Of a stretch of 35,229 nt of DNA, positions 5,003 through 16,694 are shown piece by piece; within the stretch, counting starts at the first letter, position 1; each line of letters begins with the position of its first letter. Source of the DNA: Alphaproteobacteria bacterium (lineage in GTDB: Bacteria; Pseudomonadota; Alphaproteobacteria; Thalassobaculales; Thalassobaculaceae); assembly GCA_024742605.1 (NCBI GenBank), contig JANSYC010000041.1:1-35229 (forward strand), written 5' to 3'. Made by a program: the position numbers and the translations under genes. The notes beneath the pieces were generated by a model, which did no database searches, was not told the origin of the DNA, and saw nothing but the letters and a program-made list of their open reading frames with translations.

Positions 5003-5016
5003 TTGACGACCGTCAA
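5003..5016. promoter_or_regulatory. Perfect FNR/FixK box upstream of phasin gene
   Basis: TTGACGACCGTCAA is a perfect TTGAC-N4-GTCAA palindrome. Its centre is 75 nt before the phasin ATG. A -10-like TGCAAT lies at 5036-5041, 29 nt from the box centre, which fits a class II activation geometry near -41.5. The FixK-type protein at 7710 has the matching E-x-x-S-R recognition helix. Confidence 0.8.
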
Positions 5017-5084: not shown

Positions 5085-5504
5085 ATGGCCAAATCGGAGT
5101 CAAAATCGCGTCTGAATGGTTTAGGTGCGTCAGCGGTACCGCCGGTCGATATCGAGCCGTTGCTTGAGGTCAACCAGAGAGGCATTGAGGCGGTCGCTCA
5201 GGCGAACAGCCATGTGCTGCAGAACATGGCTCGGCTCAACAGCGAAATCTTCCAATTCGTCAGCAGGCGCCTGGAGCACGACCGCAAGACCGCAAAGGAG
5301 TTTGCGGCCTGCAGCTCACCCCAGGAAGCCTATAGCGTCTGCGGCAAGTTTCTGGAATCTGCAATGAAGCAGTATTCAGAGGAGATGGGAGTCATCACCG
5401 GTCTCTACACGGACCAGCTTCGGCAGACAATCGAAGACACCCAGCATCAGCTTCACGAAGCCGTAAACTCATCCGTCGATGCGGAAAAGCAAAGCTCGTC
5501 CTGA
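5085..5504 (+). CDS. Phasin family protein (PHA granule-associated)
   Basis: A 139-residue, mostly helical protein starting at ATG 5085 after AGGGAGAGAAGCC. The segment from about residue 25 (IEPLLEVNQRGIEAVAQANSH) through the heptad-rich FLESAMKQYSEEMGVITGLY is typical of the small alphaproteobacterial phasins (Phasin_2-like). Phasins coat polyhydroxyalkanoate granules and regulate their size and number. A PHA synthase gene about 9.8 kb downstream in the same island supports this role. A perfect FNR/FixK box precedes the gene and a strong hairpin follows it, so it is probably a single-gene transcript induced at low oxygen. Confidence 0.85.
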   Translation: MAKSESKSRLNGLGASAVPPVDIEPLLEVNQRGIEAVAQANSHVLQNMARLNSEIFQFVSRRLEHDRKTAKEFAACSSPQEAYSVCGKFLESAMKQYSEEMGVITGLYTDQLRQTIEDTQHQLHEAVNSSVDAEKQSSS

Positions 5505-5643: not shown

Positions 5644-5783
5644 ATACCTGACGGCCATCTGTAGTTTTCGTTCTTCTGGTAATTTATGTTTGCAGACGGA
5701 GCGTGTGGATCTAGTATTGCGTTTCCGTCCCGGCATGATTACTCGGCTTGCGAAGCTATCTACCGTTTCGAGGGAGCGCGGAT

Positions 5784-6950
5784 TTGGTTATTGATCGCAT
5801 GTATTTGGGGTCAGGGGCGGAAACCTCTCTGCTTGATCTGATTATTCAGACGGCCCCGGATGCGATCATCACTGCGGATTCCAACGGCATCATTTTGAGC
5901 TTCAGTCCGGCCGCCGAGCAGATGTTCGGTTACAAGGCGGATGAAGTCGTGGGACAGAATTTGAGCTGCTTGATGCTGGAGCAGGATCGCGCTCATCATG
6001 ACGGGTATTTGCAGCACTATATGCGGACCGGGGAAAAGCATGTGATCGGGATCGGACGCCAGGTTCGAGCCCGGCGCAAATCCGGTGAGGCTTTCGTTGC
6101 CGAATTGGCGGTGGGGGAACTGCGAAAAGGCGACGATCGTATCTTTACCGGGTTCATCCGCGACGTCACCGAACGGGTGGATGCGATCCGAAAGGCTAGG
6201 CGGCTGCAACGTGCCCTTGATCAGGTCTCGCGCATTCAAATGCTTGGCGAAATGTCGACTGCGGTCGCGCACGAGATTAACCAGCCGCTCACCGCCATTT
6301 CAAATTTCGCGCGCGCCGCGGGGCACCGGCTGCGTGCCAATCCTCCAGATGTTCAAGCGGCTGTGGAACATCTTGACGAACTCGCCGAACAGGCTCTGCG
6401 AGCCGGTGAAATTGTAAAGCGTATGAAGCGCATGGTGGACCGCGGCCAAGCGAATCCCGGTCCGGAAAATATAAATGCGATCGTGGCTGAGGCGGTCAGG
6501 ATCGCCAAGACCGTGCACTCACATGACAACCTCCAAGTAGATATGAAACTGGCGGCAGATCTTCCGCCGGTTCGAGCCGATCGAATTCAGATTCAACAGG
6601 TGATGGTCAATCTCCTTGGCAATGCTGTCGAGGCCATCGAGGGGGAGCCGCCCGCGGAAATCAGTATTTCGACCAGGATGGCTGGGCGAATTGGCGAAAT
6701 TGAGATCCATGCGGAGCGCCAGAACCATGAAACCATCATGGTGACGGTTACGGATAACGGTCCTGGATTGCCGGAAGAGTTGCTGAAGACGGCCTTCGAT
6801 CCCTTCGTCTCTGGTCATATGCAAGGGGTGGGGGTCGGACTGGCGGTCTGCCGTTCGATCATCCAATCCCATGGCGGTCGGATATGGGCTGAAAATAATC
6901 CTGGTGGCGGTGCAAGCGTCCGCTTCACCTTGCCGGTTGCGGACAGTTGA
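5784..6950 (+). CDS. fixL: FixL-type oxygen-sensing haem-PAS histidine kinase
   Basis: About 388 residues, soluble, with no membrane segment. A PAS domain (about 20-135) has the FixL signature IIQTAPDAIITAD, FSPAAEQMFGY, RAHHDGY and HVIGIGR. The His codon at 5997-5999 aligns with the haem-ligating His200 of Bradyrhizobium FixL, and the Arg of HVIGIGR with its Arg220. The kinase part has the H-box VAHEINQPLTAISNFARAA, the N-box VNLLGNAVEAI, and the G-boxes VTDNGPGLPEE and GVGVGLAVCRSII. By analogy, oxygen on the haem turns autophosphorylation off and low oxygen releases it to phosphorylate FixJ. The TTG start at 5784 was chosen because GAGGGAG lies about 9 nt upstream; ATG 5799 lacks a ribosome-binding site. 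Its stop overlaps the fixJ start (TGATG). Confidence 0.88.
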   Translation: MVIDRMYLGSGAETSLLDLIIQTAPDAIITADSNGIILSFSPAAEQMFGYKADEVVGQNLSCLMLEQDRAHHDGYLQHYMRTGEKHVIGIGRQVRARRKSGEAFVAELAVGELRKGDDRIFTGFIRDVTERVDAIRKARRLQRALDQVSRIQMLGEMSTAVAHEINQPLTAISNFARAAGHRLRANPPDVQAAVEHLDELAEQALRAGEIVKRMKRMVDRGQANPGPENINAIVAEAVRIAKTVHSHDNLQVDMKLAADLPPVRADRIQIQQVMVNLLGNAVEAIEGEPPAEISISTRMAGRIGEIEIHAERQNHETIMVTVTDNGPGLPEELLKTAFDPFVSGHMQGVGVGLAVCRSIIQSHGGRIWAENNPGGGASVRFTLPVADS

Positions 6951-7576
6951 TGGCACCGGTGACCCCTTCATCAGTGGATCTGATCGAAGACGATGCAGCC
7001 GTACGTGCCTCTCTGGTTGCTCTGCTGAAGGTTTGGGGGTTCGACGCCCACGCATTTTCGGATGGCGAGAGCTATCTAGCGGAGAAGCCCTGGAACCATT
7101 CTGCATGCCTGCTTTTGGACTACAGTCTTCCGGGACGGAACGGGTTGGAGATCCTGTCGGAATTGCACGGACGGGCGCCGGACTTCCCTGTCATCATGAT
7201 CACCGGTCACGGCGACGTTGCCTTAGCGGTTCGTGCTCTCAAGGCCGGGGCCCGGGACTTTATCGAGAAGCCATATGAGGATGAGGATCTTCGTGAAAAA
7301 ATTGAGAACCTGATCCGAAGCCAAGATTTTGCAGGTGCTAGGGGACTGCCGGATCAGAGCTCGCTAAGGGCCTTCGAAACCCTCACTCCGCGCGAAATGG
7401 AAGTGATGATGGAAGTCGTTGCCGGCCATTCGAACAAGGTGATCGCTCATCACCTTACTCTCAGTCCGAAGACTGTGGAGGTGCACCGTGCACGGGTTAT
7501 GGCGAAGACGGGTGCCAAGAACCTCTCCAATCTGGTGCGGCTGGCGATTAAGGCCGGGCTGGATGGAGGAACATGA
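6950..7576 (+). CDS. fixJ: FixJ-type response regulator
   Basis: A 208-residue protein with a receiver domain and a LuxR-type helix-turn-helix. The receiver has the acidic pair in LIEDDAAV, the phospho-acceptor Asp57 in LLLDYSLPGRNG, the switch Thr in MITGHGD and the Lys in EKPYEDEDL. The C-terminal domain reads LTPREMEVMMEVVAGHSNKVIA and LSPKTVEVHRARVM, the FixJ/NarL-type DNA-binding helix. The ATG at 6950 overlaps the fixL stop, so the two genes are translationally coupled and form a cognate pair. Phosphorylated FixJ classically activates fixK, and the fixK-type gene follows 134 nt downstream behind FixJ-site-like sequence. Confidence 0.9.
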   Translation: MAPVTPSSVDLIEDDAAVRASLVALLKVWGFDAHAFSDGESYLAEKPWNHSACLLLDYSLPGRNGLEILSELHGRAPDFPVIMITGHGDVALAVRALKAGARDFIEKPYEDEDLREKIENLIRSQDFAGARGLPDQSSLRAFETLTPREMEVMMEVVAGHSNKVIAHHLTLSPKTVEVHRARVMAKTGAKNLSNLVRLAIKAGLDGGT

Positions 7577-7626: not shown

Positions 7627-7709
7627 TTCTCCCAACTTTCGAAACGCCACCCTACGTTGTGACATCAAGCCGGTTCATTACCACTTTCTCATTTACGGAG
7701 GGTAGTTCG

Positions 7710-8420
7710 ATGACGCTGGCGCTAATTGACACAGATAGTGCCTTATCTCGCTCAAACACTCGGGCTTGTCATGCCGAGGCAAGCACGCCCGAATGGCTCC
7801 GGAGCTTGTTTCGGGATCGTGACCCGCTGCGACCCATCCCTCCCGATGGCATTGTCTTTTTGGATGGCGATCCGGCCGACCAGCTGTTTCAGATCGTCTC
7901 CGGGACGATACGTTGCTGCACGATCTCAGAAGAAGGTCGTCGCCAGATCTTCGGGTTCGCGCGACCGGGTGATTTTCTGGGCTTTTCCGATCTCGATACC
8001 TGGCATTTCACGGCTGAGGCGGTGGATACGGTAACCCTGCGATCTGTATCAAGATCGACGCTCGAAGCTGTCATCTCCAATGAACCATGTCTGCATAAGG
8101 ACATCCGGCGGATAATCGTCGATGAATTGGTGCGGCGGGAACAGCAGCTCATGGTTATCTCTTTTCTGCAGTCAGATGAGAGGCTGTTGTGCTTTCTTCG
8201 GGACCAGGCTGCGCGGACCAGGCCGGTTGACGGATTCACGCTTCTGCCGATGACCCGGCAGGAAATTGGAGACCATATGGGCATGTCCCTGGAGACCGTC
8301 AGCCGCTCCTTCACGAGCTTGAAGCGGAAGCGGGCGATTGTGATGCCGGCGGCGAACCGCTTCAGGCTTTCCGGCGCTTTCGGAGTTGAAGCGATCACCA
8401 GTGACCACATTGCGGCGTGA
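7710..8420 (+). CDS. fixK: FixK-type Crp/Fnr family transcriptional regulator
   Basis: A 236-residue protein from the ATG at 7710, preceded by CGGAGGG; the open frame begins earlier but without a ribosome-binding site. The N-terminal cyclic-nucleotide-binding-like domain contains FLDGDPADQLFQIVSG and GFARPGDFLGF. The C-terminal winged helix has MTRQEIGDHMGMSLETVSRSF, in which E-T-V-S-R matches the E-x-x-S-R signature that contacts TTGA half-sites in FNR and FixK. The FNR iron-sulfur cysteine cluster (CxxCxxxxxC) is absent, so this is a FixK-like protein that depends on FixJ for oxygen information. Perfect cognate boxes occur at 5003, 9283 and 9812. It converges on the zinc-finger/Hsp20 unit. 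Confidence 0.85.
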   Translation: MTLALIDTDSALSRSNTRACHAEASTPEWLRSLFRDRDPLRPIPPDGIVFLDGDPADQLFQIVSGTIRCCTISEEGRRQIFGFARPGDFLGFSDLDTWHFTAEAVDTVTLRSVSRSTLEAVISNEPCLHKDIRRIIVDELVRREQQLMVISFLQSDERLLCFLRDQAARTRPVDGFTLLPMTRQEIGDHMGMSLETVSRSFTSLKRKRAIVMPAANRFRLSGAFGVEAITSDHIAA

Positions 8421-8665: not shown

Positions 8666-9160
8666 TCAGTGCGGCCCTGTCGAGATGGAGATCCTATGGC
8701 TCGACGGCTGCTCTTTCGTCGGCTTCGGCAAGGTGACTTTCAGAACTCCCTTCTCGAAAGTTGCTTTTACATCCTTCGGATCGATTCCCCCGGGCACGCG
8801 GATCGCGCGCTCGAAGACACCCTGCGACCGCTCCATGATCCGCCATTTCTTGTCGGACTGCTCGGACTCGGCTTTGCGTTCGGCGTGGATTCTCAGAACG
8901 TTGTCCTCCAATGTGACGACCGTGTCTTTTTCTTCGACCCCAGGAAGGTCGGCGGTGATGTGTATTTCGGAATCGGTATCTCCGATGTCGACCCGAAGCC
9001 CGAGTGTGCCGTCACCGTTGCTGGACCCTGGACTCCATGACATCTGAGGCATCGAGAACGCATGGAACATCCGGTCCATTTCAGCTTGCAGGGTGCTGAG
9101 TGGATTGTGTCCAAAAATGCTCGGTTGAGGGGCGGTGGGCGTCGCCGTCTTGTCGGCCAT
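8666..9160 (-). CDS. Hsp20 / alpha-crystallin small heat-shock protein
   Basis: A 164-residue protein. The ATG at 9160 is chosen because GGAGGATGAC sits directly upstream; the ATG four codons earlier lacks a ribosome-binding site. The alpha-crystallin domain (about 45-150) includes LRVDIGDTDSEIHITADLPG, VEEKDTVVTLEDNVLRIHAE and the closing strand AFEKGVLKVTLPK-like segment (ATFEKGVLKVTLPKP). The C-terminal tail has the HRISI variant of the I-x-I anchor. Such proteins hold unfolding proteins and are often found near PHA granules. Here the gene is preceded by a perfect FNR/FixK box, pointing to low-oxygen rather than purely heat induction. Confidence 0.92.
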   Translation of the reverse strand: MADKTATPTAPQPSIFGHNPLSTLQAEMDRMFHAFSMPQMSWSPGSSNGDGTLGLRVDIGDTDSEIHITADLPGVEEKDTVVTLEDNVLRIHAERKAESEQSDKKWRIMERSQGVFERAIRVPGGIDPKDVKATFEKGVLKVTLPKPTKEQPSSHRISISTGPH

Positions 9161-9282
9161 GTCATCCTCCATCTGGAACGGGTGCGGATAGGTCCCGAAC
9201 GGCCCGCCATTTTCATTTGGGTCCGGTCTGGCAGTCCGTCACAGGGTTGCGGTCGATGATGCCTGCATGGCGAAGCGGTGTT

Positions 9283-9296
9283 TTGACGGGCGTCAA
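9283..9296. promoter_or_regulatory. Perfect FNR/FixK box upstream of Hsp20 gene
   Basis: TTGACGGGCGTCAA is a perfect TTGAC-N4-GTCAA site. Read on the minus strand, a -10-like CATCAT (9261-9256) lies 31 nt from the box centre. This fits a class II promoter starting near 9248, about 90 nt before the Hsp20 ATG. The box overlaps the last codon of the relic frame at 9293. Confidence 0.8.
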
Positions 9297-9778
9297 TCAT
9301 GTTGTTCGATGTGATTTCCATCGGTCGGATGTGTCCGCGTCGGGCTGTTCTGCGTGAGCGCCGCGAAGTCGCCCACGATATCCGGAAGTTCATCCGTGAT
9401 CGCCGGCTGTCGGGCGCCTCGAAACGCCGAGAGCGCGTTCCCTAGCCGCTCTTCCAACGCTTTTTCTGCTCGGGTCATCAGCGCCAGCCGTGCTGTATGT
9501 TCGGTTGCGAGGGACAGAGCGCCGGCTCGGAAAAGGCTCACGGAGAGATGCTGGCGGATAAGCGCACCGAACAGGGAACAGATATCGGACTGGTGCATTG
9601 GCAGTTCGCGGCCAATCCAGGGCCGCGCCCGGATCGCCGCCAAGAACGCGTCGTCTAAGGGGGTCAGGACATCCTCATCCGCTTGTCCCTCAGGGATCTT
9701 GCGCTGCGTCGAGCGGTGCTGACCGAGGACCTGGCAGGCCCGGCGCTCGGACACGACGGTCTTGGCGACCACGTGCAT
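9293..9778 (-). pseudogene. Chimeric relic: IS3 OrfB fragment joined to alternative F1-ATPase gamma C-terminus
   Basis: A 161-codon frame that seems to join two unrelated families. Residues 8-37 (VVSERRACQVLGQHRSTQRK and following) match the start of IS3-group OrfB transposases. Residues about 60-142, including ALIRQHLSVSLFRAGALSLA, ATEHTARLALMTRAEKALEE and ARQPAITDELPDIVGDFAA, resemble the C-terminal helix of F1 gamma subunits, in particular the alternative N-ATPase atpG as I recall it. The rest of gamma and all other ATPase genes are missing, as is the rest of the IS. The simplest reading is an IS3 insertion and deletion that left the tail of a lost operon in frame. Function is unlikely. 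The gamma assignment is by eye. Confidence 0.55.
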
Positions 9779-9811: not shown

Positions 9812-9825
9812 TTGACGTTCGTCAA
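9812..9825. promoter_or_regulatory. Perfect FNR/FixK box between the relic frame and the ABC permease
   Basis: TTGACGTTCGTCAA is a perfect TTGAC-N4-GTCAA site. If used toward the minus strand with class II spacing, transcription would start near 9777, on the ATG of the relic frame, giving a leaderless message. On the other side it abuts the 3' end of the ABC permease gene. It may be the surviving promoter of a gene removed by the IS event. Confidence 0.7.
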
Positions 9826-9831
9826 CCGTGA

Positions 9832-10950
9832 TCAGGGAGCGAGCGAGCGCCGAAACTGAATCAGGCTTGCCGTCAGCAGGGCCATCCCGAGAACCGCGAC
9901 CACCAGGAACCCGGGCCAGACATTTCCGAAGCCGGCGTCCTTGAAGATGATCGCTTGGCTGAACGTGATGAAATGGCGGGACGGCAGTGCCAGGGTTAGG
10001 GTCTGGAGCCAGTCCGGCTGGCTGTCCACTGGCGTGTCACCGCCGGACAACAGTTGCATCGGGATGATCGTCAGGATGATCAGGAGCGCGAACTGCGCCA
10101 TCGAGCGCGCCAGGGTGGCCAGGAACACACCCATCGCCGTGGCTGAGAACAGGTAGATCACCACACCCAGCACGAACAACGCCCGCGAGCCCAAGATTTT
10201 GACGTCAAGAACTCCCTCGATGATGAAGGTCAGGGACACCATGGCGACGGCCAGAACCATGAAACCGTTGGCCCAGATCTTCGCGAGCGCGATGTCGAGC
10301 GGTGACAGGGGCATGGCCAGGAGGTGCTCAATGGTTCCGTGCTCCCGTTCCCGGATCAGGGCGGCGCCCGTCAGGATGATCGTGAGCATGTTGATGTGGT
10401 TCACCAACGAAATCAGCGCCATGAACTGACGGGTGTCGCGATTGGGATTGAACGCGCTGTGGGTGACCAGATCGATGGTGGCTTCCGGCCCCCCGTCGTT
10501 CTCAGTGACATAGCGTCGGATTTCAGCTTCCAGAATGCGGTTTACATAGGACGCGCCGATGCCCGCCTGCTCCATGGCCGTCGCGTCAATCACGACCTGC
10601 AGCTCGGGGCTTCGGCCGGCCCTCAGATCGGCCTCGAACCCGGGGGGCACGGAGACGATGAACAGGTACCGGCCGCGGTCCATCGCGGTATTGGCCTGGC
10701 GGGCTTCGATCTGGACGACCGGCTGGAATTCCGGTGGAAAAAAGGCCTCGGCAAGGGACCGGGATAGGGCGGAACGGTCCTCGTCGACGAAAGCAATCGA
10801 GGCGTTGTTCACGGAGGTCGAAGTCCCCGTCGCTTCGATGATCAAGCCGAAGCTGAAGGAATAGATCAGCAGCCCCAGCATGACAGGATCCCGGCGTAGG
10901 CTCACGATCTCCTTCAAACCCAACCAAAAGATCCGCGCGATACGATCCAT
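9832..10950 (-). CDS. yhhJ: ABC-2 type permease of a YhiI-RbbA-YhhJ-like exporter
   Basis: A 372-residue membrane protein. One N-terminal membrane segment (about 22-40, PVMLGLLIYSFSFGLII) is followed by a periplasmic domain with FVDEDRSALSRSLAEAFF. A cluster of five hydrophobic segments (about 185-370) follows, with the ABC-2 motif ALIREREHGTIEHLLAMPLSP. It matches the C-terminal half of the RbbA protein encoded just upstream (gap 3 nt), and should be its half-transporter partner in the inner membrane. The operon order HlyD-type adaptor, RbbA, permease is the same as yhiI-rbbA-yhhJ in Escherichia coli. The transported substrate is unknown; similar systems have been linked to drug export. Confidence 0.85.
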   Translation of the reverse strand: MDRIARIFWLGLKEIVSLRRDPVMLGLLIYSFSFGLIIEATGTSTSVNNASIAFVDEDRSALSRSLAEAFFPPEFQPVVQIEARQANTAMDRGRYLFIVSVPPGFEADLRAGRSPELQVVIDATAMEQAGIGASYVNRILEAEIRRYVTENDGGPEATIDLVTHSAFNPNRDTRQFMALISLVNHINMLTIILTGAALIREREHGTIEHLLAMPLSPLDIALAKIWANGFMVLAVAMVSLTFIIEGVLDVKILGSRALFVLGVVIYLFSATAMGVFLATLARSMAQFALLIILTIIPMQLLSGGDTPVDSQPDWLQTLTLALPSRHFITFSQAIIFKDAGFGNVWPGFLVVAVLGMALLTASLIQFRRSLAP

Positions 10951-10953
10951 CGC

Positions 10954-13695
10954 TTAGCGTTCCTGGGTGCGAAGAGACAGGATCGCGATCAGCGTGAAGG
11001 CGGGCCCGAAGGCCGCCAGGGCGAGAATATCGAGGTACAACTCCGACCATCCCAAGCCCTTGGTGAAGGCTCCCACATTGAGGTGCAGAAAGTGGGACGC
11101 GGGCCAGAAGGTGCCCAGAATCCGCGCGGCCCCGTCCAATGTCGACACCGGCTGAAGCAGACCGGAGAACTGAATGGTCGGGATGATTGAGGACAGGGCC
11201 GTGGCAAAGACTGCCGCGACCTGGCTCGAGGTGACTGTTGAGATGACCAGGCCAAAGGCAGTGCTTGCCCAGACGTAAAGGAGCGCACCAACCAGCAGCG
11301 GCAACAGATCCCCCTTCAGGGGCACACCGAAACCCCACTCCGTTAATCCTGAAAGCAGCAGGAAATTGAGATAGGCGATCGCCAGATACGGGGTCTGCTT
11401 GCCGACCAGGAACTCGAGGCGCGTGGTCGGGGTAACGTAGAAATTCGTGATCGAACCGAGCTCCCGCTCCCGCGCCACGCTGACCGCCGTCAGAATCGCC
11501 GGCAGGAGGATCAGCAGAATGGCTGGCATCGCAGGAGCCATCGCATAGATGCTTTCGAAGCTTTGATTGTACCTGAACCGCTGATGGATCTCGGCCATCG
11601 GCTGCTCGGGGGCGGAGTTTTCGCGTGCCAGACGTTGCAGGTAGGCCGAATGGATGCCGGCCACGTAGCCCTCCACCGTTTCCCCCTTGAAGGGGATGGC
11701 GCCGTCCACCGTCGCAAGGACAGACGGTACGCCGCCGGCCTTGAGCCGTTCGCCGAAATCTGGCGGTATCTCCAGGGTCAGGGAAACGTCGCCGCCAACC
11801 AGACGTCGGTGGCCGTCAGAACTGTCGGTCAGATCCGCAGTTCGGGTGAAATAGCGCGAGCCTTCGTACATAGCGATATATGCGCGACTCTCAGGAGAGC
11901 GATCGAGATCGATCGTCGCGAAACTCAGGTCCTCGATATCCAGAGAGATTCCGAAGCAGAATAGAATCATCAGGACGACCGACCCGATAAACGCGAAAGC
12001 CAACCGCACCGGATCGCGTATTGCTTCAATGCTCTCACGCCGCGCATAGGCGGACAGCCGGTCCAGGCTGATCGGACCTATTCGTGTGCCGGAGGTATCC
12101 GAAGGCCGGGTGACGAGGACCGGCGGGTCGGCTTCAGGCTGACGTTCTGCCGTCTCGGTTGCACGCAGCCTGGCGACGAACGCTTCTTCCAACCGATCGA
12201 CGTCGGCATCGGCCATGAGTTTTGCGGGCGTGTCACAGGCCAGGACCTTCCCTGCATGCATCAGGGATACGCGATCGCATCGTTCCGCTTCACTCATAAA
12301 ATGGGTCGTGATGAAGATCGTCACCCCGTCGCGTCGGGACAGCTCGACCAACAGCCGCCAGAACATGTCCCGTGCGGCCGGATCGACTCCCGAGGTCGGT
12401 TCGTCCAGGATCAGTACCCTTGGCTTGTGGATCACCGCGACGGCCAGGGACAGGCGCTGGCGGACGCCCAAAGGCAGATCGCCAGCCACCTGATCCAGAT
12501 AGTCGGAGAGACCGAACCGGTCCGTCAGGCGCCTGATCCGATGCATCCGGTCGGAGCCGTCGAGCCCGAAGACACGGGCGTGAAGGTCCAGGTTCTGCCG
12601 CGCCGTCAGTTCCCCATAGAGCGAGAAGCCCTGAGACATGTAGCCGACCAGATGCCGAACGTCCTGTCCGTGCGAGGCGACGGACGCACCCAGCAGGACG
12701 GCGTTTCCGGAACTGGCCGGCAGGAGCCCCGTCAACATTTTCATGGTGGTGGATTTGCCGCAGCCGTTGGAGCCGAGAAAGCCGAAGATCTCGCCTTCTC
12801 GAATCTCGAAACTGACCGCGTCGACCGCCGTGAAATCGCCGAACCGTTTGGTCAAGGCCTCGGCGACGATGACCGGCGGTCCGGCCCTATCTCCCAAAGG
12901 TGGGATCTCGAGATCGCTTCCGCTTTCTTCATCGGGGCGGAGGGCGCGGTAGGCGTCCTCCAAGGAAGCAGTACCGGCAGCAGCCATGAAATCCGCCGGT
13001 GATCCGGTCTTCAGGATCCGCCCCCCATCCATGGCCGCCAAATAGTCGAACCGGCCCGCCTCATCCATATAGGCCGTTGAAACCAGAACGGTCATGCCAG
13101 GGTTCGCCGTGCGAATGGACGCGATCAGGCTCCAGAACTGGATGCGGGACAGGGGGTCGACCCCGGTCGTCGGCTCGTCCAGGACCAGCAGATCCGGGTC
13201 GTGGATCAGGGCGCAACAGAGCCCGAGTTTCTGTTTCATTCCACCAGATAGCTTGGCTACCGGGCGGTCTCGGAACGGGGCGAGTCCGGTCGCGCTCAGA
13301 AGCATGTCGATACGGGCGGCGCGCCGCTCCGTCCCGACCCGGAACAACCGCCCGAAGAAGTCGAGGTTCTCCAGAATTGTCAGTTCGCCGTAAAGGTTGC
13401 GGCCAAGACCTTGCGGCATATAGGCGATCCGAGGGCAGATTTGCCGCCGATGGTCGGGCTGCCCGATGTCCCCGCCGAACACTTCGACCCGGCCGGATTG
13501 AAGCCGTTTCGCGCCGGTGATCAGACCGAGAAGAGTGGACTTGCCGACCCCGTCCGGCCCGATCAGGCCGGTGAGTAGTCCGTCTGGAATGCTCAGCGAC
13601 ACGTCCTCCAGCGCCGCCCTCGATCCGTCGTAGATATGGGAGACATCGGCGATCCGGATGCCTGGGGCTTCAACTTTTGGGGCGAGCGGGTTCAT
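10954..13695 (-). CDS. rbbA: RbbA-type tandem ABC ATPase fused to ABC-2 permease
   Basis: A 913-residue fusion. NBD1 (about 10-255) has Walker A GPDGVGKST, signature LSGGMKQK and Walker B LLVLDEPTTGVD. Its H-loop reads STAYMDEA, with Ala in place of His. NBD2 (about 270-510) has Walker A GSNGCGKST, Walker B VLILDEPTSGVD and a normal H-loop TTHFMSEAE, but its signature is LPLGVRQR. The membrane part (about 560-910) carries ABC-2 segments and ARERELGSITNFYVTP. E. coli RbbA, first described as a ribosome-associated ATPase, shares this layout. The ATG overlaps the adaptor stop (ATGA). Composite sites mean probably one competent ATP site. Confidence 0.9.
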   Translation of the reverse strand: MNPLAPKVEAPGIRIADVSHIYDGSRAALEDVSLSIPDGLLTGLIGPDGVGKSTLLGLITGAKRLQSGRVEVFGGDIGQPDHRRQICPRIAYMPQGLGRNLYGELTILENLDFFGRLFRVGTERRAARIDMLLSATGLAPFRDRPVAKLSGGMKQKLGLCCALIHDPDLLVLDEPTTGVDPLSRIQFWSLIASIRTANPGMTVLVSTAYMDEAGRFDYLAAMDGGRILKTGSPADFMAAAGTASLEDAYRALRPDEESGSDLEIPPLGDRAGPPVIVAEALTKRFGDFTAVDAVSFEIREGEIFGFLGSNGCGKSTTMKMLTGLLPASSGNAVLLGASVASHGQDVRHLVGYMSQGFSLYGELTARQNLDLHARVFGLDGSDRMHRIRRLTDRFGLSDYLDQVAGDLPLGVRQRLSLAVAVIHKPRVLILDEPTSGVDPAARDMFWRLLVELSRRDGVTIFITTHFMSEAERCDRVSLMHAGKVLACDTPAKLMADADVDRLEEAFVARLRATETAERQPEADPPVLVTRPSDTSGTRIGPISLDRLSAYARRESIEAIRDPVRLAFAFIGSVVLMILFCFGISLDIEDLSFATIDLDRSPESRAYIAMYEGSRYFTRTADLTDSSDGHRRLVGGDVSLTLEIPPDFGERLKAGGVPSVLATVDGAIPFKGETVEGYVAGIHSAYLQRLARENSAPEQPMAEIHQRFRYNQSFESIYAMAPAMPAILLILLPAILTAVSVARERELGSITNFYVTPTTRLEFLVGKQTPYLAIAYLNFLLLSGLTEWGFGVPLKGDLLPLLVGALLYVWASTAFGLVISTVTSSQVAAVFATALSSIIPTIQFSGLLQPVSTLDGAARILGTFWPASHFLHLNVGAFTKGLGWSELYLDILALAAFGPAFTLIAILSLRTQER

Positions 13696-14690
13696 TCGAA
13701 CAGATCATCGGGGATGCGCCGTTCCAATGCTTCCGGCCAGGGTGTCGAGGGATCGATGCGGACATAGGCTAGGCCTCTGACGCCTGTCTTCACATGTGCG
13801 ATCCGATCTGCCACGCGTTCCGGCGGAATCCGGACCCGGACCCGAAACACCAGCTTTTGCCGCTCGGAGATGGTTTCCACCTGCCTCGGCGTGAATTGTG
13901 CTTCCGGAGACACGAAACTGACATGCGCCGGAATGGCGTAGTCGGGCAGGGCGTCGAGCACGATCCGCGCCTCCGTCCCCAAAGCCAGCAGCCCGGCGGC
14001 GTCGGCGGGTAGAAAGACTTCCATGTAGATGTTCTCGAGGCTGAGAAGGGTCAGGATCGGCGCGCCAGCCGCCAGGACCTCCCCCGGCTCGGTCAGCCGG
14101 TACAGGATCCGTCCGGCGACCGGGGCCTGCAGGGTGCTGTCGTCGATCTGGCTTTGGATACGACGCACTTCCGCGTCGGCGGCGTTAATTCGACTCTCAG
14201 CCGTTGCGACATGTGCGATGGCTGCCCGGCGCGCCGCCTCGGCGACATCCCGGGACGACTGGCGCTGGTCGAATACTGCCTGAGAGATGTGGCCTTTCTC
14301 CACGAGCGTCAGGGCACGGACCAGTTCGTGCTCGGCTAGCCGGAGCTCGCTCTCTCGCTGGAGGACGATCGCCTCGGCTTCGGCCTTGGTCTCGCGGGCC
14401 AGGGCGACCTCGGCTTTCCCCCGGTCTAAATTGGCCGATAGTTCGTCCGTGTCCATCCGCGCCAGAACCTGGCCCTTGGTAACGAGATCGCCTTCGGAGG
14501 CCAGGATCTCGACCACCCGACCGGGCGTTTTGGGGGCGATGTCGACCTGATCGGCTTCAAGTCGTCCGTTCCCGAAGGTGATACCGTCCGGAACAGCCGC
14601 GCTTCGGGCTTGAAGCCATGTGAAGGCGGCATAACCGGCGACCAGACTCAGCAGGCCGGCAACCAAGACAATGCGTGATGTCCGAAACAC
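13692..14690 (-). CDS. yhiI: HlyD-family membrane-fusion adaptor (YhiI-like)
   Basis: About 332 residues. An N-terminal membrane anchor (IVLVAGLLSLVAGYAAF, about 8-24) is followed by a biotinyl-lipoyl-like half (VDIAPKTPGRVVEILASEGD). A coiled-coil hairpin (about 75-165; AKAEVALARETKAEAEAIV, RESELRLAEHELVRAL) and the second lipoyl half LQAPVAGRILYRLTEPGEV complete the core. Adaptors of this type link an inner-membrane ABC pump to the periplasm or an outer-membrane channel. The GTG at 14690 is favoured because GGAGGG lies just upstream; a GTG two codons earlier is also possible. First gene of the exporter operon and divergent from phaC. Confidence 0.87.
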   Translation of the reverse strand: MFRTSRIVLVAGLLSLVAGYAAFTWLQARSAAVPDGITFGNGRLEADQVDIAPKTPGRVVEILASEGDLVTKGQVLARMDTDELSANLDRGKAEVALARETKAEAEAIVLQRESELRLAEHELVRALTLVEKGHISQAVFDQRQSSRDVAEAARRAAIAHVATAESRINAADAEVRRIQSQIDDSTLQAPVAGRILYRLTEPGEVLAAGAPILTLLSLENIYMEVFLPADAAGLLALGTEARIVLDALPDYAIPAHVSFVSPEAQFTPRQVETISERQKLVFRVRVRIPPERVADRIAHVKTGVRGLAYVRIDPSTPWPEALERRIPDDLFE

Positions 14691-14777
14691 TTCCACCCTC
14701 CGGCCTGATGATGGCGAAGATCATGCTCAGGGCAACAGTCGAGGGCCGCAGCATCGCGAAGATCTCTTCGCTTCGCA

Positions 14778-14819
14778 TTGCGCTGCATCAATACGGGAAC
14801 TGACCGAGGCGCCTACAAT
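14778..14819 (+). promoter_or_regulatory. phaC promoter with degenerate FNR/FixK box
   Basis: TTGCGCTGCATCAA (14778-14791) matches 8 of 10 box positions, with a perfect ATCAA right half. A good -10, TACAAT, lies at 14814-14819, 32 nt from the box centre as in class II FNR promoters. Transcription would start near 14826, giving a 27-nt leader before the phaC ATG. The box could also affect the divergent exporter operon. Confidence 0.5.
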
Positions 14820-14852
14820 CAGAGCCTCGTTTCAAAGCGCCCGGAGTCACCG

Positions 14853-16694
14853 ATGGCCAAAAGCACATCCGCCGTCGTTCGCCTGAATCATCCCGAACGG
14901 CGGCCTGCCCGGTCTCCGCTATCAATAGTCCCAGCCTGTGAACTCGACAGGCAAGACTCTGAGTCTCGGAAACATTTGGGCGATACCTCGATGTTGAGCG
15001 AGGCGGTGGACCGGACCCTGCACGCGATGATCGCCCGAGCGACCTTGGGTCTGTCACCTGCCGCCATGTTCGAGGCGTGGAGTGACTGGGCGGTTCATTT
15101 CGCCACATCGCCGGGCAAGCAATTTCGCATCGGCGAAAAGGCGGTTCGAAAGATCGCCCGGTTCCAGAGGTATGCGCTGATGCGGGCCTGGTTGCAGTCT
15201 CAGGAGGAGCGCTGCATCGAGCCCTTGTCTCAGGACCGCCGGTTCGACGGAGACGGCTGGAAGTCTCCACCCTACGACCTGCTTCATCAGGCGTTCCTGC
15301 TGCAGCAGCAATGGTGGTGGAACGTCACCACCGGCGTACGCGGCGTCACGCCGCAGCACGAGCGCGTCATGTCGTTTGCGGCCCGGCAGATCCTCGACAT
15401 GTGCTCGCCGGCGAATTTCCCGGCCACCAACCCGGACGTCGTCAAGCGCGTATGGGAGACAGCTGGCCTCAATTTTTTTCGGGGCGCCTGGAACTGGTTC
15501 GAGGATGCACAGCATCTGTTGGCGGGGACGACAGCGCGAAAGCCAGAGGGATTCGAAGTCGGGCGGAACCTGGCCACCACGCCGGGGAAAGTGGTCCTGC
15601 GCAACCGGCTGATCGAACTCATCCAGTATGAGCCAACCACCGAGACCGTGTACCCGGAACCGGTTCTGATCACCCCTGCCTGGATCATGAAGTACTACAT
15701 CCTCGATCTCGGTCCGGACAATTCCTTGGTGCGGTATCTGCTGGACCAGGGTTTCACGGTGTTCATCATTTCTTGGGTGAATCCGACCAGAAACGACCGG
15801 GATCTGGGCATGTCGGACTATCTTGAGCTTGGGCAGATGGCGGCGCTGGATCGGGTTCAGGCGATCACCGGTGCTCAGCGCGTTCATGCCTGCGGTTACT
15901 GTCTGGGGGGAACCCTGCTGACCATCGCGGCCGCCGCCATGGCGCGTGACGGCGACGAACGTTTGGCCAGCGTCACCCTGCTGGCCGCTCAGGTGGATTT
16001 TACCGAGCCCGGCGAACTGATGCTGTTCATCAACGAAAGCCAGGTCACCTTCCTCGAAGACATGATGTGGGAGCAGGGCTATCTGGACAGCGGACAGATG
16101 GCCGGGGCGTTCCAACTCTTGCGCTCCAACGATCTGATCTGGTCGCGCGTCGTCCGCGACTATCTGATGGGAGAGCGCTCTGAGCAGACCGATCTGATGG
16201 CCTGGAATGCGGATGCGACGCGTATGCCGTACCGCATGCACTCGGAGTATCTTCGGCAGCTCTTCCTTGAGAACCGGTTGGCGACGGGCCGGTACGAGGT
16301 CGGCGATGCGATGGTGGCGGTGTCCGATATCCGTATCCCGGTTTTTGCGGTCGGCACCGAGACCGATCATGTCGCGCCCTGGCGGTCGGTGCACAAGGTA
16401 CACCTGCTGTTCGACGCGGACGTCACCTTCGTCCTGACCTCAGGCGGGCACAATGCGGGCATCGTATCCGAGCCTGGCCATCCCAGGCGGCGCTTCCGCA
16501 GCCTGACCACTTCCCGGGATCTGCCCTACCAGGACCCGGACGACTGGCTGCAGGACGCCGAACTCCACGATGGTTCCTGGTGGCCGGCATGGACCGGATG
16601 GCTGGCGGGCCTGTCGGGACCGAGGACTGATCCGCCGAAATCGACCGGTCCGGACGTCGCCGACGCTCCCGGGGCCTATGTCCTCCAACCCTGA
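14853..16694 (+). CDS. phaC: Poly(3-hydroxyalkanoate) synthase (PhaC)
   Basis: A 613-residue protein from the ATG at 14853, which follows CCGGAG. It has the PhaC N-terminal domain (about 60-230, including PPYDLLHQAFLLQQQWWWN and FFRGAWNWFEDAQHLL), then an alpha/beta-hydrolase core. The catalytic Cys350 lies in the lipase-box variant GYCLGG, Asp505 in TETDHVAP and His533 in SGGHNAGI, which is the PhaC triad. PITPAWI-like text (VLITPAWIMKYYILDLGPDN) is also typical. Class I enzymes polymerise short-chain 3-hydroxyacyl-CoA at the granule surface. No phaA or phaB is nearby, so this may be an accessory, low-oxygen-induced synthase paired with the phasin at 5085. Confidence 0.9.
   Translation: MAKSTSAVVRLNHPERRPARSPLSIVPACELDRQDSESRKHLGDTSMLSEAVDRTLHAMIARATLGLSPAAMFEAWSDWAVHFATSPGKQFRIGEKAVRKIARFQRYALMRAWLQSQEERCIEPLSQDRRFDGDGWKSPPYDLLHQAFLLQQQWWWNVTTGVRGVTPQHERVMSFAARQILDMCSPANFPATNPDVVKRVWETAGLNFFRGAWNWFEDAQHLLAGTTARKPEGFEVGRNLATTPGKVVLRNRLIELIQYEPTTETVYPEPVLITPAWIMKYYILDLGPDNSLVRYLLDQGFTVFIISWVNPTRNDRDLGMSDYLELGQMAALDRVQAITGAQRVHACGYCLGGTLLTIAAAAMARDGDERLASVTLLAAQVDFTEPGELMLFINESQVTFLEDMMWEQGYLDSGQMAGAFQLLRSNDLIWSRVVRDYLMGERSEQTDLMAWNADATRMPYRMHSEYLRQLFLENRLATGRYEVGDAMVAVSDIRIPVFAVGTETDHVAPWRSVHKVHLLFDADVTFVLTSGGHNAGIVSEPGHPRRRFRSLTTSRDLPYQDPDDWLQDAELHDGSWWPAWTGWLAGLSGPRTDPPKSTGPDVADAPGAYVLQP

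Follow-up and report, generated by a model that had tools for sequence, protein, structure and literature searches.

A soluble FixL-like haem-PAS kinase with His at site 206 and its FixJ-like and FixK-like neighbours in a Thalassobaculaceae genome

Described FixL systems and the present locus

FixL is the protein by which rhizobia sense oxygen via a haem group. Variants of S. meliloti FixL were reportedly dealt with in a study of 2009. Here, a FixL-like gene is compared with these systems. It lies in a window (the whole stretch of DNA that was analysed) of 35,229 nucleotides from an alphaproteobacterial genome of the Thalassobaculaceae, and the coordinates of its features are collected in Table 1.

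S. meliloti FixL (SmFixL; 1d06 and 1ew0) shares with the window protein a gapless haem-PAS of 113 residues, the proximal His, the distal Arg, the HisKA/HATPase part and a FixJ partner. However, SmFixL is membrane-anchored (PMC10765370, cited throughout from excerpts; three hydrophobic segments in L043) and carries Arg200, whereas the window protein is soluble with His90 at this site. B. japonicum FixL (BjFixL; 2vv6 and 1dp6) is likewise soluble, its haem domain agrees at 1.2 Å over 104 residues and His214 is present in both, but BjFixL has an extra N-terminal PAS (excerpts of PMC10765370) as well as Arg206. A third type is the minimal soluble FixL, as in Sphingobium (L044, AP027328.1). Like the window protein, these proteins have about 380 amino acids, and the stretch ahead of the haem PAS is shorter than 31 residues. 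Because such a short N-terminus is common, being found in 20 of the best 80 relatives, solubility is not special. L044 also has His at 206; its locus includes a response regulator, an FnrL-annotated gene and a cbb3 oxidase after the sensor and a Usp gene before it. In contrast, the PAS of these minimal proteins is only about half identical to that of the window, and those present in alignment A2 keep Lys357.

The exchange of interest has been studied in SmFixL, where position 200 equals BjFixL 206 and where R200A, R200Q, R200E and R200H are covered by PMC10765370. According to these excerpts, SmFixL R200H kept its spectra, with Soret bands at 418 nm (oxy), 434.4 nm (deoxy) and 424 nm (CO), and rebound CO at 40.5 against 37.3 per second, while autoxidation showed itself as Fe(III) shoulders, and the volume and enthalpy profile was altered. 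Autoxidation and altered thermodynamic profiles are described there for the R200 variants, a lowered O2 inhibition is cited for BjFixL R206A, and NO and CO are named as further FixL ligands. The R200H laboratory variant thus carries the very histidine found at this site of the window protein; it is, however, a single change in a rhizobial background, whereas the window His is natural and stands among many other differences.

Concerning possible targets, the predicted alphaproteobacterial FixK regulon includes FixL, FixJ, Hsp20, HlyD and ABC proteins, all of which have counterparts here, and TTGAC-containing sites were found among FnrL sites (excerpts of PMC2908626). The low-oxygen-activated locus of Burkholderia cenocepacia resembles the present genes in its Usp and alpha-crystallin genes under low O2 (excerpts of PMC6127331). 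Unlike in that regulon and that locus, as far as excerpted, the inner box bases are C...G in all three copies of the window, and the gene sets overlap only partly.

Table 1. Features of the window, in order of position
Feature	Position	Strand	Basis
TTGACGACCGTCAA, FixK/FNR-type box, 68 bases before phasin ATG	5003..5016	.	motif search
Phasin (Phasin_2)	5085..5504	+	Pfam
FixL-like soluble histidine kinase	5748..6950	+	ORF, Pfam, PDB phmmer, AlphaFold2, fold comparison
His84, predicted proximal haem ligand (Bj His200)	5997..5999 (CAT)	+	structure alignment; His in 80/80 best relatives
His90, site of Bj Arg206 / Sm Arg200	6015..6017	+	structure alignment
Arg104, predicted distal O2-binding Arg (Bj Arg220)	6057..6059	+	structure alignment; Arg in 80/80 best relatives
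His175, predicted HisKA phospho-acceptor	6270..6272	+	invariant column in alignment A2; Pfam HisKA
His357, loop before glycine-rich G2 box; Lys in 73/73 relatives	6816..6818	+	alignment A2
FixJ-like response regulator (receiver + GerE/LuxR DNA-binding domain)	6947..7576	+	Pfam; best PDB match FixJ 5xso
FixK/FNR-like regulator (CRP family)	7659..8420	+	Pfam; best PDB match FixK2 4i2o
Hsp20 / alpha-crystallin small heat-shock protein	8666..9172	-	
TTGACGGGCGTCAA, box, 110 bases before hsp20 start; overlaps last 4 bases of 9293-9778 frame	9283..9296	.	
161-aa protein, C-terminal half resembles F1 ATP synthase gamma C-terminus	9293..9778	-	Pfam
TTGACGTTCGTCAA, box, 33 bases before gamma-like frame start	9812..9825	.	
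ABC permease 9832-10950, RbbA-type ATPase/permease 10954-13695, HlyD-type adaptor 13692-14696	9832..14696	-	family profiles
Class I-like PHA synthase	14778..16694	+	family profiles

Predicted haem pocket, site 206 and kinase domain

The FixL-like frame codes for 400 amino acids from TTG 5748 or for 383 from ATG 5799; the ATG is probably the true start, the listed TTG being too early. The order of domains is a haem-type PAS (residues ~29-141), a helical linker, HisKA (166-228) and HATPase_c (278-398), the latter two scoring 30.1 and 93.5 bits against Pfam cut-offs of 26.9 (PF00512) and 26.4 (PF02518). The frame is full-length and open, and the H, N, G1 and G2 boxes are all present. By sequence, the top solved relatives were chimeras that contain the kinase of BjFixL (8a7f, 4gcz), together with the SmFixL and BjFixL haem domains. 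A search with the whole protein found no second copy of the sensor in the genome, the next match being 29% identical in the kinase part only.

The PAS aligned without gaps by phmmer to both SmFixL 1d06 (residues 29-141, E 3.4e-34) and BjFixL 1dp6 (residues 29-150, E 8.4e-32), with scores well outside what chance would give. An AlphaFold2 model of the whole protein, built on a 74-row alignment, reached a pTM of 0.57, with pLDDT values of 79-97 per ten-residue block over residues 31-140 and of 83 at 91-100; the PAS alone, folded from single sequence, gave a poor pLDDT of 43 and was set aside. Compared with the BjFixL haem domain 2vv6_C, the model showed a Z of 18.9 and an rmsd of 1.2 Å for 104 aligned residues, model 38-141 on chain 154-257. 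As both ranges are exactly as long as the aligned count, the alignment is gapless with an offset of 116, so that residues 84, 90 and 104 correspond to 200, 206 and 220. The adjoining His83 is therefore not the proximal ligand. His84 and His90 lie within helix 78-94 and Arg104 opens strand 104-109, matching the FixL fold. The list of structure matches for this model consisted mostly of kinase domains, and its silence on other PAS families is uninformative.

The initial annotation had proposed a soluble FixL-type haem-PAS protein, with the codon at 5997-5999 as His200, an Arg at Arg220, a His at the Arg206 position and no membrane segments. All of this agrees with the gapless phmmer matches, the structure alignment and the FixJ-like partner directly downstream, as well as with a top 19-residue Kyte-Doolittle mean of only 1.13 over the whole 400 residues. 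A structure-based alignment shifting the His had been named beforehand as the result that would count against the proposal; against 2vv6_C, the His stays at 200. The features of a FixL-type protein, namely the PAS fold, proximal His and distal Arg, HisKA/HATPase_c and an adjacent FixJ-like regulator, are all found. The arginine of BjFixL site 206, commonly described as conserved, is replaced by His90; it is not a defining feature, as 26 of the best 80 relatives are without it. The pocket residues compared (His84, Tyr87, Tyr91, Ile100, Arg104, Leu120 and Val122) are all FixL-like, and Bj His214 is kept as His98, a position at which 65 of 73 relatives carry Arg. From these residues and the fold we infer that the PAS carries haem and binds O2.

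To place His90 among relatives, genome contigs were scanned with a profile (alignment A1), giving at least 590 stretches, 575 of them confirmed, of which the best 80 were used. Site 200 was His and site 220 Arg in 80 of these best 80 of at least 575 relatives. At site 206 the counts were R 54, H 22, N 2, Q 1 and S 1, in a set ranked by likeness to the window protein and thereby slightly favouring His. A second count, independent of this ranking, used the DNA pattern HDxY[..]xxYxxTGE[..]IG, which requires His200 and leaves Arg220 outside, on 385 genomes drawn from the class. It matched 51 places in 41 genomes, with R 26, N 11, H 10 (the window being one of these), S 3 and A 1 at site 206. More distant relatives also showed Asn, Thr, Asp, Ala and Ser there. 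On these counts, Arg206 is the commonest state in the family and not a fixed one, and His is a common natural alternative. The earlier hint that this His marks the protein as unusual consequently did not hold, as His is second commonest among the best 80 relatives and third in the class draw. In the open-licence literature we recognised no report of a natural His at site 206, which is a weak negative.

A tree was calculated with the 'quick' method and SH-aLRT support only, from 91 FixL-like rows minus 10 lacking the H-box motif, thus 81, and with the site-206 column excluded. Arg and His needed 7 changes on this tree, against about 20 for shuffled labels, and no fewer than 6 are required for the His group by the starred branches. 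The window protein is sister to L057, a Silicimonas MAG with His (95, starred), followed by L058, a Rhodobacteraceae MAG with Arg (99, starred), and then by L051, a genome of the window's own family with Arg (100, starred). These placements indicate that the Arg/His exchange is recurrent, being old in some clades such as Sphingobium and recent in others.

Two possible correlates of His206 did not hold up. In raw counts among the best 80 relatives, His was found in 12 of the 20 minimal proteins, against 10 of the 60 others. However, this tie to the minimal soluble architecture was put down to shared ancestry: pairs selected for independence on the tree gave 0.0 in the same direction, 0.4 in the opposite one and 5.6 without difference, of 6 in all, a comparison of little power. 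Nor can compensation by a second site be claimed, since the PAS sites whose residue frequencies differ most (127, 63, 118 and 132) mark lineage differences dominated by Sphingobium.

Other departures of the protein are rarer than His at site 206. In the kinase part, R227K, K357H and F391V alter residues that all 73 of 73 relatives share (alignment A2); further departures in the protein are R291G (68 of 73 relatives alike), F229M (71 of 73) and P77L (70 of 73). A Lys in the loop before the G2 glycines would contact the nucleotide. L057 has His206 like the window protein and yet keeps Lys357, so that His206 and K357H are not linked. Judged by the changes at the three invariant sites, kinase activity may not be taken as assured, and these sites are a better reason than His206 to assay the kinase.

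FixJ-like and FixK-like neighbours and their candidate targets

The FixJ-like frame overlaps fixL by 4 bases, and Asp58, Thr86 and Lys108 are present in its product. A FixJ-like match occurs at 77 of the best 80 relatives' loci, directly downstream and on the same strand in 72, and a FixK-like match at 47 of 80. In the case of the FixK-like gene, the ATG at 7710 after GGAGGG is the likelier start. The recognition helix LETVSR is identical to that of FixK2. A Thr stands just before this helix. We take this to be the site of the redox-sensitive Cys183 of FixK2 (Ser in the solved variant), and redox control of the Cys183 type may be absent from the FixK-like protein. With regard to NCBIfam equivalogs, the sensor scored 337.1 bits against a curated 850 for rhizobial FixL (NF041777; matched 125-483 of 485), the regulator 200.5 against 255 for FixJ (NF006900, best of 93 families) and the CRP-family protein 118.2 against 300 for Caulobacter-type FixK (NF050806, best of 11 families). 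As all three remain under their cut-offs, they are named FixL-, FixJ- and FixK-like.

Exact TTGAC-N4-GTCAA boxes occur four times in the 4.47-Mb genome, three of them within 5 kb of fixL, and the fourth lies on contig C167, 86 bases before a gene with a Pfam Usp match. Under uniform placement, three of four in the window corresponds to p = 1.9e-6, for a motif chosen after being seen. There is no genome-wide excess of this exact motif (4 versus 3 for the reversed control), and the argument therefore rests on clustering. The relaxed TTGA-N6-TCAA was found 41 times in the genome versus 12 for its reversed control; the canonical FNR box TTGAT-N4-ATCAA has no exact copy in the window and two in the genome. 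In the nearest relatives, an identical box precedes hsp20 by 77 bases (L057), and TTGACGCGCATCAA precedes phasin by 64 bases (L058). A second FNR-like regulator of the same genome (contig C142, 36% identity) could use these boxes instead of the FixK-like protein. The ABC permease, RbbA and HlyD genes are probable further FixK targets and the PHA synthase a probable associated function, memberships suggested by their fit to the FixK-regulon picture, though the RbbA-type ABC genes and the PHA synthase are without a box of their own.

The gamma-like frame stands alone in the window and looks like a fragment. In L051, whose genome belongs to this family, the PHA synthase and FixK-like genes have ATP synthase a, b and alpha/beta-type genes beside them. 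From this gene order, the frame may be what is left of an ATP synthase operon of that sort.

Concerning nitrogen fixation and respiration, the assembly gave three nifH family matches, none above cut-off, and cbb3 oxidase was represented by nothing more than an incomplete ccoN match where a contig begins, also under cut-off. Two of the nifH-model matches, at C169:34614-35219 and C35:27997-28773, reached about 200 bits, below the cut-off, and may be light-independent chlorophyll(ide)-type reductases.

Proposed role and its meaning for the family

Altogether, the gene most likely encodes an ordinary further example of the known FixL kind, the flagged His being a common natural alternative. It is very probably a soluble FixL-type O2 sensor kinase heading a FixL-FixJ-FixK-like low-oxygen cascade. 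Folds, residue correspondences, gene order and box positions were established directly, and the cascade would operate as follows. His84 would anchor haem in the PAS pocket, and Arg104 would hold the O2 on the haem iron; in this O2-bound state the kinase would be kept off. Once O2 leaves, the dimer would autophosphorylate on His175, and the FixJ-like regulator would receive the phosphate on Asp58 and raise FixK. FixK, for which the boxes give sequence support, would bind TTGAC-N4-GTCAA at phasin, at hsp20, at the gamma-like gene and at the distant Usp gene, and these targets would set up polymer storage and survival at low O2.

By analogy with SmFixL R200H, with its altered thermodynamic profile and autoxidation in the excerpts of PMC10765370, a change of signal transmission by His90 is possible; a changed O2 affinity was not found in those excerpts. 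The likely effect is a modest shift in the stability of the inhibited state, with sensing not lost; His90 should alter the tightness of kinase inhibition in the O2-bound state, and the rate of haem oxidation, without abolishing sensing.

A stronger version of this idea is that the protein, while a haem-PAS FixL relative, has a really different set-point or polarity, i.e. weak O2 inhibition or mostly phosphatase activity, owing to His206 and the changed kinase residues. The reduced O2 inhibition of BjFixL R206A and the autoxidising SmFixL R200 variants with changed profiles (excerpts of PMC10765370) point in this direction, as do the alterations of K357, R227 and F391. We nevertheless regard it as unlikely, since Arg and His have replaced each other at 206 often and repeatedly, as expected of a tolerated site, the nearest relative L057 separates His206 from the loss of Lys357, and the FixJ and FixK genes are intact. 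An extension of this idea to the family is similarly doubtful: site 206, viewed in the laboratory as a lever from haem propionate to kinase, would be a natural tuning site at which Arg and His were swapped several times, here combined with K357H in the ATP lid; the resulting O2 sensor would differ distinctly from rhizobial FixL in its set-point, or its inhibition by O2 would be leakier.

The remaining alternatives concern the haem and the integrity of the gene. Haem is not visible from a sequence and FixL binds NO and CO too (excerpts of PMC10765370), so that the PAS might be without haem in the cell, or sense redox or NO instead of O2; given the FixL-like pocket residues, the close fold match to the BjFixL haem domain and the FixLJ-FixK-like gene order, this is very improbable. 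That the gene is decaying and non-working, a kinase with broken conserved sites in a metagenome-type assembly, would fit the invariant sites that have changed and the fragment-like gamma frame nearby. Yet the frame is open with its boxes complete, the partner genes are intact, and the end branch of 0.69 is like those of the sisters L057 (0.68) and L058 (0.58), which makes decay most improbable. The FixL-type O2 sensor thus remains the preferred reading, and its small points of interest are the recurrent Arg/His exchange and the changed kinase sites.

For the family, this means that a view of FixL signalling built on a conserved arginine, as derived from the rhizobial proteins, fails more widely, with Arg in 54 and His in 22 of the best 80 relatives. 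Natural Arg/His sensor pairs, e.g. L058 and L057, are ready material for testing residue 206. For the organism, the local boxes connect the sensor not with nitrogen fixation but with phasin, Hsp20 and Usp genes.
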